From NCBI RefSeq assembly GCF_040529185.1, contig NZ_CP159510.1, positions 744,001 through 808,000 on the forward strand: DNA of 64,000 nt, in the 5' to 3' direction. Shown in pieces: positions 51,325-56,059 of the stretch. The stretch's first letter is position 1; every line of letters begins with the position of its first letter. A model generated the notes under the pieces. That model was not told where the DNA came from. It made no database searches and worked only from the letters and a program-made list of their open reading frames with translations. Both the position numbers and the translations under genes were made by a program. This DNA is from Sporolactobacillus sp. Y61 (GTDB lineage Bacteria; Bacillota; Bacilli; Bacillales; Sporolactobacillaceae).

Positions 51325-52269
51325 GTGGAGATACGCCAGCTGCAGACGTTTATCACGGTAACCGACGTCAGGGGATTCAGCCGGGCTGCCGACAGCCTTG
51401 GCTACGCACAGTCAAGCATAACGGCACAAATACAGGGGCTGGAAGCGGAGATCGGGATACCTTTGTTTAACCGGCTCGGTAAAAAAATTACACTGACTGA
51501 AGCAGGAAAGCGGCTGCTCCCTTATGCCCGCCAAATCGTTGCGCTGCACGATTCGGCTCTGGCACAGACAAAAGAAAGCGGCATTCCGTCCGGAAAGATC
51601 GTGATCGGAGCCCCGGAATCACTCGCTGCTTATCGACTGCCCGCGGTGATTGACGCGTACCGCAGGCGCTATCCCCATGTGAAAATCATTTTGAAGCCGG
51701 GGATGTGCCAGCAACTGAGAGAGGAAGCAAAAAATGGTGAACTGGATGTTGCCTTTCTCCTGCAGGAAGAAGCGACGTTTCCCGATCTTCACACGGAAGT
51801 GCTCGTTCGCGAACCGATGGTGCTGATTGCCCCGCCACAGCATCCGTTAACGAAATCGGCGCGGCTCCGGCCAGCCGATCTCCAGGAAGAGCCCATTCTT
51901 TCAACGGAGCCGGGTTGCCGCTATCGGGAGTTGTTTGAAAGTTACATGAACCGGTGCGGAACGCCTGTCAGGACCGATCTGGAATTCTGGAATATCGAAG
52001 CAATCAAACAGTGTGTCATGTGCGGACTCGGCATTGCGTACTTGCCCTATGTAACGGTGAAATCAGAAATCAGGCAAAACAGACTGGTCGTTCTGCCGTG
52101 GCAGGACGATATCGTTCCGGTTGCGACCCAGCTCGTCTATCATCAATCAAAGTGGCTGTCCTCTGCCCTGCAGGCGTTTCTCCGGATGCTGCGTGTAAAT
52201 GCACAGATGTGGCGGGAAGAAGTTGCCGATTTCGATCCGACCGGTTCACTGAGTAAAGGCAGTGGCTGA
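51325..52269 (+). CDS. LysR-family transcriptional regulator
   Basis: 314 residues from GTG at 51325 with GGAGGATT upstream; the longer frame starting at 51202 reads through intergenic DNA. The N-terminal winged helix (EIRQLQTFITVTDVRGFSRAADSLGYAQSSITAQIQ, given here in part) and effector-binding domain (PEPLVLI-type segment MVLIAPPQHPL) are typical. Likely target is the adjacent permease gene. Confidence 0.88.
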   Translation: MEIRQLQTFITVTDVRGFSRAADSLGYAQSSITAQIQGLEAEIGIPLFNRLGKKITLTEAGKRLLPYARQIVALHDSALAQTKESGIPSGKIVIGAPESLAAYRLPAVIDAYRRRYPHVKIILKPGMCQQLREEAKNGELDVAFLLQEEATFPDLHTEVLVREPMVLIAPPQHPLTKSARLRPADLQEEPILSTEPGCRYRELFESYMNRCGTPVRTDLEFWNIEAIKQCVMCGLGIAYLPYVTVKSEIRQNRLVVLPWQDDIVPVATQLVYHQSKWLSSALQAFLRMLRVNAQMWREEVADFDPTGSLSKGSG

Positions 52270-52444
52270 TTCGTTCCGGACGAATACCTCATCCATAGTG
52301 GCAAGCATCGAGATGATCGCCATGAGTAACAGAAAGCACGTAAAAAGCGACGACAAAATGAGATATGAAAGGCTGTACCGTTTACAGCAAGACAACACAA
52401 CGATGAGAATACCCGGCACGACAGAATCGGCCGCCCAATTTTTC

Positions 52445-52473
52445 TTGCATTGAAAGATAAAGTATGCTATCAT
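52445..52473 (+). promoter_or_regulatory. rpsF operon promoter
   Basis: TTGCAT, 17-bp spacer, TATCAT with a TG extension. The start near 52480 gives a leader of about 65 nt before rpsF. Confidence 0.7.
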
Positions 52474-52479
52474 TTTAAT

Positions 52480-52540
52480 CTATGAGTGAGTAAACTTGCT
52501 CTCTGCTCCGTTGAGGGGCCGCTTAGTCCAAAGGGAGGTG
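52480..52540 (+). promoter_or_regulatory. possible S6:S18 autoregulatory leader
   Basis: The short leader contains two CCG motifs (CTCCGTTGAGGGGCCGC). A conserved CCG-bearing hairpin that binds the S6-S18 complex is known in rpsF leaders; this is at the right place, but I did not derive its fold. Confidence 0.35.
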
Positions 52541-52546
52541 AAAATC

Positions 52547-52765
52547 GTGCGCAAATATGAAATACTGTACATCCTGCGTCCGGATTTGGAAGACGATCAG
52601 GAAAAAGCCGTTAAGGAAAAGGTTGCTTCCATCCTGACGGATAATGGCGCCGAAATCAATGATGTCAAGGAAATGGGCAAACGCCGACTGGCCTATGAGA
52701 TCAATGATTATAATACCGGTGTCTATGTTGATTTGTTTGTAACAGCCGACAATAAAGCAACCTAG
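52547..52765 (+). pseudogene. rpsF: 30S ribosomal protein S6, 5' part, cut by an IS element
   Basis: From GTG at 52547 (GGGAGGTGAAAATC upstream) this reads MRKYEILYILRPDLEDDQEK through EMGKRRLAYEINDYNTGVYV to VTADNKA, 71 correct residues of about 101. The last genuine rpsF base is 52760; one IS-encoded codon (Thr) and a stop follow. The removed C-terminus includes most of strand 4 and the S18-contact tail. The missing part lies beyond the IS at 54471-54568 and rejoins perfectly in frame if the IS and one duplicated copy are removed. A truncated S6 is unlikely to fold or bind S18 normally. Confidence 0.95.
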
Positions 52766-52828
52766 AATATTCATGGCCCGCGGTATGAACTTTACTTGTC
52801 GTTGAGCCACCAAGGTTTACAGCGATTT

Positions 52829-52856
52829 TCACTTTTCACCTGAAAAGTGAAAAAAG
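52829..52856 (+). repeat. hairpin upstream of the transposase gene
   Basis: CACTTTTCA / TGAAAAGTG arms with a tiny loop (positions about 52831-52850), inside the IS left end. It may limit read-through transcription into the transposase gene, a common guard against host promoters. Confidence 0.5.
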
Positions 52857-52926
52857 GAAATGAAAAAGGAGCTCATTCCTTGTATGATTAAGTTAAGCGA
52901 AAACAAACATACAGGGGGCTCCTCAT

Positions 52927-54255
52927 ATGTCCAGTGTAAAGGAATCAACGTTCCACTTCAATAAAAAGATTAAGGCCAGTTTCTCAGGCGGCGCGCTTTC
53001 TTCTGATTCCGGCTTATTACTTTATCGAGAATTCGATGAAAAGACTGGCCTCAGTGAGTTGATCCAGGAAAAACTGTACGTGAACGATCCGGTCACTCAT
53101 GCCAGGCACACCAACCCAAAGGTGGTGATTCAGAAAATCTATCAGCACCTGGCTGGCTATCACACCGACGACCAGGCCGATGAGTTGGGAACAGATCCCA
53201 TATTCACGACCCTGCTTGAGAAGAAGCACCTGGCTTCCCAACCGCGGCTGTCCCGCTTTAATCAACGCGTGGATGCCGACACCGTTCAATCGCTGGAAGC
53301 CGTCAATCAAGCTTACCTGGATCGACTCTATGCCCTCAGGCCCAGTCAGCAGGTAGTGCTTGACGTGGATTCAGCCAATTTTGAGACCGCCGGGCATCAG
53401 GAAGGGACGGCCTACAATGCCCATTACCAGGACACCGGCTACCATCCGCTTCTCCTGTTTGACTCGCTGACCGGCTACTGCCTGAAAGCCGAACTACGTT
53501 CCGGCAATGTCTACACCTCCCGTGGTGTCGTCGATTTTATCCGTCCGGTGCTGGCACACTATCGCTCGCTCAATCCCGGACAGGATCTGGCCGTCCGGGG
53601 AGACAGTGGCTTCGCCGTTCCCGGGCTGTACAGCTTGTGTGAGGAAAAAGAGGTTTTTTACGCCATCCGTTTGAAGGCCAACCCCCGGTTGGCTGAAAAA
53701 GCACAGCGGCTTGTGGAAGCCCGTCAGAAAAAGCACGCCATGCCAGTCGGTTCTTCAGTCGTGTTTTATCGTGAATTTCAGTACCAGGCGGCTTCCTGGG
53801 ATCAGGCCCGGCGAGTTGTTGTGAAACTGGAGCGCCCGGAAGGTGAGCTCTTTTTCCAGCCGACCTTTATTGTCACGAATATGAGCCTTCCCGCTAAACG
53901 CGTCATTAAATTCTATCAAAACCGGGGCACGATGGAAAACCTGATCAAGGAAGGCAAGAACGGTTTTGCCTTTGATCAGCTGAGCAGCACCCGTTTTGAA
54001 GCCAACGCGGTGAAACTGCAGATTCGTATGCTGGCAAGCAATATTGAAGCCGGGTTTCGCCTGCTCTGTCTGCCGAAATCCGCTAAAAAGAAGCGGCTTT
54101 GTATGGATACTGTGCGCCTTCGCCTGATCAAGATTGCCGGCAGGCTCGTTCATTCCGGCCGTTCGCTCATTTTCCGACTCTGCAGTCACTGTCTTTACCA
54201 AAAGGTCTTCCGGCAGACGCTGGATCAAATCCATCGGTTGCCGGCATTGGCATAG
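52927..54255 (+). CDS. IS1380-family DDE transposase
   Basis: 442 residues, intact. Begins MSSVKESTFHFNKKIKASFSG and shows the family regions LDVDSANFETAGHQEGTAYN, VRGDSGFAVPGLYSLCEE and the C-terminal YQNRGTMENLIKEGKNGFAFDQLSS (quoted in part), whose Asp/Asp/Glu make the catalytic triad. ATG is preceded by AGGGGGCTCC. It moves its own element by cut-and-paste. Probably still active. Confidence 0.93.
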   Translation: MSSVKESTFHFNKKIKASFSGGALSSDSGLLLYREFDEKTGLSELIQEKLYVNDPVTHARHTNPKVVIQKIYQHLAGYHTDDQADELGTDPIFTTLLEKKHLASQPRLSRFNQRVDADTVQSLEAVNQAYLDRLYALRPSQQVVLDVDSANFETAGHQEGTAYNAHYQDTGYHPLLLFDSLTGYCLKAELRSGNVYTSRGVVDFIRPVLAHYRSLNPGQDLAVRGDSGFAVPGLYSLCEEKEVFYAIRLKANPRLAEKAQRLVEARQKKHAMPVGSSVVFYREFQYQAASWDQARRVVVKLERPEGELFFQPTFIVTNMSLPAKRVIKFYQNRGTMENLIKEGKNGFAFDQLSSTRFEANAVKLQIRMLASNIEAGFRLLCLPKSAKKKRLCMDTVRLRLIKIAGRLVHSGRSLIFRLCSHCLYQKVFRQTLDQIHRLPALA

Positions 54256-54417
54256 TGTCCAGACCATCAATCTTAAAAAATTCAGAATTTCTGTTGGAAA
54301 CGACGGGATTCGTCTGCCCTGAAAACGAGAAAATGGCTGTCCGCATGTTCCATGCGGGCCAACAGGCATTCAAAATCATCGTTAAGTTGTTCGCTTAGTA
54401 AAAATCTGTAAAATCCT

Positions 54418-54446
54418 TTGCGAAATTACCACCTAAACCATAGAAA
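54418..54446 (+). promoter_or_regulatory. possible outward promoter at the IS right end
   Basis: TTGCGA, 17-bp spacer, TAGAAA, 24 bp inside the IS end and reading toward ssb-rpsR. Each hexamer matches 4 of 6 consensus positions. If used, it would drive the operon genes now cut off from the rpsF promoter. Confidence 0.35.
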
Positions 54447-54470
54447 ATAAGCTGCTATGAATAATTCAGG

Positions 54471-54568
54471 AAGCAATTAATGAATTTGATCGTCTTGTGA
54501 AAATCAATGATGATGTCATTCGATTTATGACCATTAAAGACGAACGCAAGCCGGAAGAAGTAAAATAA
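54471..54568 (+). pseudogene. rpsF: 30S ribosomal protein S6, 3' part
   Basis: Starts with the duplicated AAGCAA and continues INEFDRLVKINDDVIRFMTI, then [10 protein letters not shown] and stop at 54568: the S6 C-terminus in the frame left at 52760. No ribosome site or start of its own (an ATG-like codon is internal), so it is not expected to be translated. It lies 22 nt before ssb. Confidence 0.93.
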
Positions 54569-54590
54569 AACAGGAATCGGGGGGATTCTG

Positions 54591-55112
54591 TTGATTAATC
54601 GGGTCGTGCTTGTCGGACGGCTTACCAAAACTCCGGAACTCCGTTATACACCAAATGGAGTGGCTGTAACAAGTTTTACCCTTGCTGTGGACCGTCCGTT
54701 TTCAAATCAGCAGGGTGAACGTGAAGCAGATTTTATTCCGGTAGTTGTCTGGCGCAGACAGGCAGAGAATGTGGCGAATTTCCTGAACAAGGGAAGTCTG
54801 GCTGGTGTCGACGGACGGATCCAGACACGCAATTATGAAAATAATGAAGGCCGGAGAGTATATGTGACCGAAGTCGTTGCCGACAGTGTTCAGTTTCTTG
54901 AACCCAAGGGTGCAAGACACAATGGTACTAATAACGGAGGGAATGCCGCTCCTGCCCCCACAGGAGATCATAACGGCTACGCCTCGCAGAAACAACAAGC
55001 GAGGCGCCCGAATGAAAATGGCAACAGTGATCAGAATGCCCCTTCTTTTGACGATCCCTTCGCAAATGACAGCAAACCAATCAATATATCGGATGATGAT
55101 CTGCCGTTCTGA
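54591..55112 (+). CDS. ssb: single-stranded DNA-binding protein
   Basis: 173 residues. OB fold starting [20 protein letters not shown] (start TTG, GGGGGG upstream) and the acidic C-terminal tip DDDLPF, which recruits partner proteins. A low-complexity Asn/Gly/Gln linker lies between. It is essential, so it must be transcribed despite the IS upstream. Confidence 0.97.
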
Positions 55113-55148
55113 CAGGCATCCGACGAATAAAAGAGGAGGTGCACGGAT

Positions 55149-55379
55149 ATGGGTATGCGCAGATCTCGCGGTAAACGCCGTAAAGTATGCTATTTCACAG
55201 TAAATCACATTACTTATATTGATTATAAAGATGTTGATCTGCTGAGAAGGTTCATTTCCGAGCGAGGAAAGATCCTGCCCCGTCGTGTAACAGGAACCAG
55301 TGCGAAGTACCAGCGTCCGCTGACCAGAGCGATTAAACGCGCCCGTCAGATGGCCCTGCTTCCCTATACAGCGGAATAA
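55149..55379 (+). CDS. rpsR: 30S ribosomal protein S18
   Basis: 76 residues; GGAGGTGC precedes [23 protein letters not shown], then [20 protein letters not shown] are S18 hallmarks; the CxxC seen in zinc-type S18 is absent (single Cys). S18 normally pairs with S6, whose gene here is broken. Confidence 0.97.
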
Positions 55380-55385
55380 ACAGAT

Positions 55386-55427
55386 AAAAAAGCAGTGGCA
55401 GCCAAAAAGGCTGCCGCTGCTTTTTTA
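55386..55427 (+). terminator. terminator after rpsR
   Basis: AAAAAAGCAG..GGCAGCC / GGCTGCC..CTGCTTTTTT, 5-nt A-loop. Bidirectional in appearance. Confidence 0.9.
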
Positions 55428-55486
55428 AAGTATCAGAAAAACGAATCCTCTGGCGGCGTCTGCGGTTTGCCGGTCAGCAATGTTCC

Positions 55487-56059
55487 TTAATAATAAGGAG
55501 CCATCATCAGATAGACAACGACGCCTGTCAGGCTGACATAGAGCCAAATTGGCATGGTCCAGCGAACAATCCGTTTATGCTTTCGCACCTGCATCGTCCA
55601 GCCCCAGACCGTTGCAAACGGAGCAAGGAAAACAACCAGGGCGGCAAGTGTACTGTGCGTAATCAGAATAAAAAAGTAAATCGGGCGAACCGATCCGGTA
55701 CCGCCGAAGTGTGCAGGCGGGGCAATAAAATGAAAGGAAAGATATGACAAAAGGAACAGAAAGGTTGTCGTGAAGGCAGCAAGAATAAATCCGCGGTGCA
55801 GATTAATCTTTTTTTTCTTAATGGCAATAAGTGCGGCGACAAGAAAAATAAAGGTAAAACTGTTAAATACGGCGTTAAGTTTAGGAAGAATATAAATATC
55901 GTCGTTCACTTTCCCCTGATAGCCAATAAATGGTGCAAAAAACAACAGCAAAATGGCGACATTGGCAAGGATTGCGAAAGTGATGATCGGGAGGGCGTAA
56001 TTCTTCCCTTTTTTGTCATGTATGCGTTCAGTGTCTGCCCTTTGTATCCTTTTATCCAT
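55487..56059 (-). CDS. DUF420 family membrane protein (YozB/CtaM-like)
   Basis: 190 residues, about five membrane segments, with conserved HRGFILAAFTTTFLFLLSYL and ITHSTLAALVVFLAP and histidines in the membrane. Members (YozB, CtaM) are needed for terminal oxidase maturation in some Firmicutes; whether that holds here is inferred. Alone on the minus strand. Confidence 0.85.
   Translation of the reverse strand: MDKRIQRADTERIHDKKGKNYALPIITFAILANVAILLLFFAPFIGYQGKVNDDIYILPKLNAVFNSFTFIFLVAALIAIKKKKINLHRGFILAAFTTTFLFLLSYLSFHFIAPPAHFGGTGSVRPIYFFILITHSTLAALVVFLAPFATVWGWTMQVRKHKRIVRWTMPIWLYVSLTGVVVYLMMAPYY

Follow-up and report, generated by a model that had tools for sequence, protein, structure and literature searches.

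The gene for ribosomal protein S6 (rpsF) in Sporolactobacillus sp. Y61 is interrupted by an insertion sequence of the IS1380 family. We consider it most probable, at roughly 0.8, that this is a recent natural loss of rpsF by transposition of a resident element, in a strain for which S6 would be dispensable and in which the downstream ssb and rpsR would be expressed by read-through. According to this reading, an active resident element would have jumped into codon 72 of the only chromosomal rpsF in a single strain, and the 30S subunits would be built without S6. The genes ssb and rpsR would still be transcribed, by read-through that originates both at the rpsF promoter and in the transposase gene, which points in the same direction. 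The strain would survive as S6 is dispensable; as in Escherichia coli, maturation of the 30S subunit would probably suffer, and the loss may be beneficial under stress. The S6 gene is found in all sampled genomes of Bacilli and is dispensable in E. coli, and its disruption here is recent, natural and well supported. The mechanism, an active insertion sequence that breaks a dispensable gene, looks ordinary rather than new, and the case looks like a rare natural knockout. Its value lies in a non-engineered test of the role of S6 in 30S assembly, of the autoregulation by the S6:S18 complex, and of the adaptation of S18 after the loss of S6.

Interruption of rpsF by a resident element

The window, by which we mean the whole 64,000-nucleotide stretch of DNA that was analyzed, corresponds to bases 744001-808000 of the one contig (3,224,419 bp) that makes up the genome, which is 99.17% complete. 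The features of the rpsF locus are collected in Table 1.

Table 1. Features of the interrupted rpsF operon (window coordinates)
Feature	Position	Strand	Remarks
rpsF leader	52480..52546	+	hairpin, CCG, and a stem taking in the Shine-Dalgarno sequence; probable S6:S18 operator
rpsF, 5' part	52547..52765	+	71 native codons, ACC from the junction, TAG inside the element
Target-site duplication, left copy	52755..52760	+	AAGCAA
IS1380-family insertion sequence	52761..54470	+	1710 bp; orientation of rpsF; imperfect terminal inverted repeats
IS1380 transposase	52927..54255	+	442 aa, DDE; profile matches
Target-site duplication, right copy	54471..54476	+	AAGCAA
rpsF, 3' remainder	54477..54568	+	original frame
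ssb	54591..55112	+	intact; TTG start
rpsR (S18)	55149..55379	+	complete open frame; Q57P at base 55318

As read from the window, rpsF starts at the GTG at 52547 and continues for 71 native codons and one nucleotide before the element is reached. The broken product would finish in ...NKAT, with its stop codon (TAG, 52763-52765) situated within the left end of the insertion sequence. The N-terminal piece matched positions 1-68 of the 90 positions of the Pfam S6 profile (E 3.5e-20), and the C-terminal piece matched positions 68-90 (E 5.4e-05, with a score under the curated cut-off of the family). The two pieces are consecutive parts of the S6 profile in one frame and belong to a single S6 gene. 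The sequence-only reading of this DNA had proposed that the rpsF frame stops at the boundary of the element after 71 codons and resumes in frame beyond it, and both the sequence and the profile matches bear this out. It had also called for a search for a second rpsF. In the profile search of the 3,224,419 bases of the chromosome (one contig), the rpsF fragment was the single S6 match at E≤0.001, and no second S6 gene was found on this 3.22-Mb chromosome, which would encode no complete S6. A plasmid-borne S6 would have escaped this search.

The identity of the element, proposed at the outset as a 1710-bp member of the IS1380 family between 6-bp copies of AAGCAA, was confirmed. The transposase scored 378.4 bits with the NCBIfam model of the family (NF033539, cut-off of 180), and 13 of the first 17 bases match between the two ends. 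Both the inverted repeats and the flanking target duplication expected of the IS1380 family are present, and the likeness extends to the DDE transposase, encoded in one open reading frame. The family is usually quoted with target duplications of 4-5 bp, and the element studied here differs from this description in making 6-bp duplications as well. Across the genome (the rpsF copy and L083-L089), five copies have a 5-bp duplication and the remaining three a 6-bp one.

Eight full-length copies of the element reside in the genome, with common end bases and all with duplications of 5 or 6 bp. The copy in rpsF and two others are identical. Relative to these, one copy has a single changed base, three have 11, and the last has 22 as well as a gap. 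The ninth match found is a 785-bp fragment with no flanking duplication. A megablast search of the element against 72,556 plasmid records gave no match. Judged from its identical copies, the element looks like an active resident insertion sequence. The set of eight full copies, three of them identical and every one flanked by a 5-6 bp duplication, argues that the insertion in rpsF is a real and recent transposition.

A second genome (G010) offers a view of the locus before the insertion. It is of the same species, with an identity of 99.57% to the window genome across 51 kb of the ribosomal-protein cluster. Next to the insertion, the identity is 99.1% across 6.7 kb on one side and 99.5% across 6.5 kb on the other. 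When the flanks of the element are joined and one copy of the duplication is removed, three substitutions separate them from G010 in 1238 nt, which makes the G010 locus the empty site. Two of the substitutions, one each in rpsF and ssb, are silent, and the third, in rpsR, alters S18. The S6 of G010 is intact and identical to both pieces of the interrupted rpsF. This identity outside the insertion supports the earlier proposal that the event is recent and the remainder of rpsF undecayed. An intact rpsF in another assembly had been set beforehand as a test against the disruption. At the level of the species such an allele exists, in G010, and the insertion itself stands. Because the site is empty and S6 is intact in G010, the insertion reads as confined to one strain or to part of the species. 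The element is also present in pieces in G010, and at least five of these pieces lie at the very start (base 1) of a contig; breaks at repeats are expected in a draft assembly. The nearest named ssb loci are those of Sporolactobacillus sp. THM7-7 and other Sporolactobacillus species, and the nearest named S6 proteins, among the matches listed, are likewise from Sporolactobacillus.

The same observations bear on whether the insertion is polymorphic, that is, whether the sequenced culture was a mixture of cells with and without the element, of which the assembly displays one allele. The existence of the intact allele within the species would fit such a mixture, as would the undecayed break and the identical copies of the element, which point to recent transposition, but when an assembly is complete in a single contig, the allele shown is normally that of the majority, and we regard this explanation as unlikely.

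Fate of the S6 protein

In the predicted model of intact S6 (mean pLDDT of 93.6), the strands span residues 2-10, 36-52, 55-67 and 85-92, and the helices span residues 16-31 and 69-80. According to the model, the break past residue 71 would remove most of helix 2 and the entirety of strand 4. Five of the 24 columns that are invariant in 31 aligned S6 proteins are lost with them (E74, F75, R77, K80 and R87). The N-terminal piece would retain strands 1-3 and helix 1. In E. coli, residues 44-49 of S6 constitute the loop that contacts S18, as given in the relevant passage of PMC4647458, and the region that aligns with this loop remains in the truncated protein, where some binding might persist. 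We infer from the model that the 72-residue product would not be a working S6, and a working fragment of S6 is unlikely. It is very improbable that a split or truncated S6 still binds S18 and 16S rRNA, with the C-terminal piece either translated separately or absent. The retained strands, helix and S18-loop region would favor this explanation, as would the lack of decay in either piece of rpsF, but a recent knockout would look equally undecayed, and the loss of most of helix 2, of strand 4 and of the five invariant columns argues against a functional fold. The starts available to the C-terminal piece are also poor: the first common in-frame start is the GTG at 54497, the single in-frame ATG at 54527 would yield 13 codons, and no ribosome-binding site was noticed before either. 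That the interruption is an assembly artefact, with the element misjoined into rpsF as can happen with repeats such as this multi-copy element, is scarcely credible, considering that the perfect target duplication and exact element ends, which the other seven full copies also show, are not what a misjoin looks like and that both flanks are collinear with G010.

The S6 gene is otherwise whole in the genus. All 14 of the other genomes encode an S6 that covers 89-90 of the 90 profile positions, with no internal stops. In the broader sample of Bacilli, an S6 match was obtained in 398 of 398 genomes, the weakest being that of the window genome (1.4e-19, with the next weakest at 1.2e-25). The matches in the other 397 genomes were all much stronger than that of the window fragment, with internal stops reported on for the strongest of these matches. 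The window genome provides the sole broken-looking S6 match among the 398 and is a candidate for a natural S6-null. This particular truncated form was not seen among the 120 listed of the 593 S6 proteins found, in a protein collection that may simply omit disrupted genes such as a broken rpsF. The one short protein among them, P0221, is a 75-residue S6 from a 61,260-bp contig (source ENA); it has a different tail and is apparently frameshifted, whether in nature or in sequencing. A limited search of literature listings returned no report of a natural insertion sequence in rpsF.

Akanuma et al. are said to have found, in 2012, that rpsF is dispensable in Bacillus subtilis. For E. coli, the pertinent part of PMC3669203 describes an rpsF::kan strain that is able to grow, with accumulation of 17S rRNA and tolerance to salt, and the RpsF knockout appears in an excerpt of PMC10038286 among the non-essential ribosomal proteins tested for zinc resistance. 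The relevant passages of PMC3112155 report that the rpsF mutant of E. coli has a lowered level of rpsR mRNA and no significant change in growth at 37 °C, and list rpsF among the genes required at 47 °C. A TraDIS screen places E. coli rpsF in the set of genes essential only by that method (PMC5821084, in the section concerned), so the cost of S6 loss may be large. The initial suggestion that this lineage tolerates the loss of S6 is supported as a reading, but it is less surprising than was implied, since the E. coli rpsF knockouts are viable. The engineered Keio knockouts of E. coli resemble the present case in the loss of S6 and the preservation of the downstream rpsR, whereas here the disruption is natural, took place in a strain of Bacilli, was caused by an insertion sequence, and coincides with a substitution in S18.

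Downstream expression and the operon leader

The transposase gene is co-directional with the rpsF operon. The terminator-like sites of the + strand are three weak stems, all of which are within the transposase gene, and the scan found no such site between the transposase gene and ssb on this strand. The right end of the element was also scanned for a promoter that faces outward, and none passed (the best candidate by count had 8/12). The genes ssb and rpsR are probably fed by read-through from upstream. Two promoter-like sites of the + strand lie upstream of the transposase, at 52739 and 52860; the region as a whole has seven promoter-like sites versus 3.7 by chance (sd 1.7), which is not clearly above chance. 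The former site is a product of the left junction of the element (52739-52768), with GTAACA contributed by rpsF, a spacer of 18 nt, and TAGAAT contributed by the end of the element. Transcription from this junction site might serve the transposase and extend as far as ssb.

The relevant passages of PMC10931766 place ssb between rpsF and rpsR in the Firmicutes operon and describe a CCG feature of the S6:S18 operator. The operon of the window genome is alike in both respects, with ssb between the two ribosomal-protein genes and a leader that carries the CCG. It differs in that, without S6, the usual S6:S18 repressor could not form. Across the genus this leader is highly conserved, and the CCG is found beside the hairpin in the nine aligned leaders (that of the window and 8 of the 10 others, on which both alignment and fold are based). 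Only one of the 19 pairs changed on both sides, which amounts to conservation and not to covariation, and the alignment does not prove the fold. A match to a curated RNA family was also sought, and Rfam returned none at E≤1 within 52000-56000. With S6 absent, repression by S6:S18 should fail, and translation from the leader could rise as a consequence. The autoregulation by S6:S18 is probably lost.

A substitution in S18

The sequence-only reading had taken the S18 gene to be intact. Its open frame is indeed complete, but it contains the Q57P change, which is absent from the other genomes of the genus: residue 57 of S18 is proline in the window and glutamine in all 14 of the others. The change is the only amino-acid difference of the operon with respect to G010, and one of the three substitutions in the 1238 nt. 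Neither the window genome (G000) nor G010 has a second rpsR. In named loci, position 57 is occupied by K (44), Q (28), R (2) or M (2) and never by proline, a tally made from 76 of 80 loci, as L008, L048, L069 and L073 gave no S18. Of 7999 S18 proteins scored, the nearest 120 were listed, and 13 of these do have proline at this position (P0009, P0012, P0014, P0015, P0018, P0020, P0021, P0023, P0024, P0029, P0030, P0037 and P0075). Five of the 13 come from contigs equal in length to contigs with a complete S6, and each of the five probably shares its contig with that S6; as the two apparently coexist there, Pro57 does not require the loss of S6. Twelve of the 13 share the N-terminal sequence RQGRKGRRRK, and they look like one group of Bacillales.

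As a control, we compared 32 other ribosomal proteins of the main cluster, whose names we assume from sequence and gene order, between G000 and G010. Six of them (L1, L12, S12, L3, L2 and S3) differ by one residue, in all cases at sites that are variable among the outgroups (five outgroups, with only three aligned for L1). Hence, differences in ribosomal proteins as such are common, and S18 is unusual solely in that its change falls on an otherwise invariant site, a property spotted post hoc. In the alignment with E. coli S18, residue 57 corresponds to Q54, six residues before K60, and the stretch that leads from it to K60, R61 and R63 is presumably one helix. These three residues of E. coli S18 contact rRNA and not mainly S6, according to the corresponding passage of PMC4647458.

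The Q57P change is suggestive of compensation, but it was singled out post hoc. The S18 proteins with Pro57 and the six other differing ribosomal proteins speak against such a reading, and the variability of those six sites among the outgroups, unlike residue 57 of S18, speaks in its favor. The specific proposal that Q57P would let S18 assemble into the 30S platform without S6, in a two-step natural compensation, we hold to be quite improbable. The limited search of literature listings found no report of changes in S18 that compensate for the loss of S6. If the proposal were true, the loss of rpsF together with Q57P would be a natural example of ribosome compensation that is open to testing. 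Compensation within 16S rRNA found no support: when the six 16S genes of G000 were aligned with the single one of G010, nine columns were variable, none of them within columns 601-780, which contain the S6/S18 site (G007 and G013 gave no 16S match). The first 1078 bases of the window themselves lie inside one of the six 16S rRNA genes (G000:C1:743528-745078).
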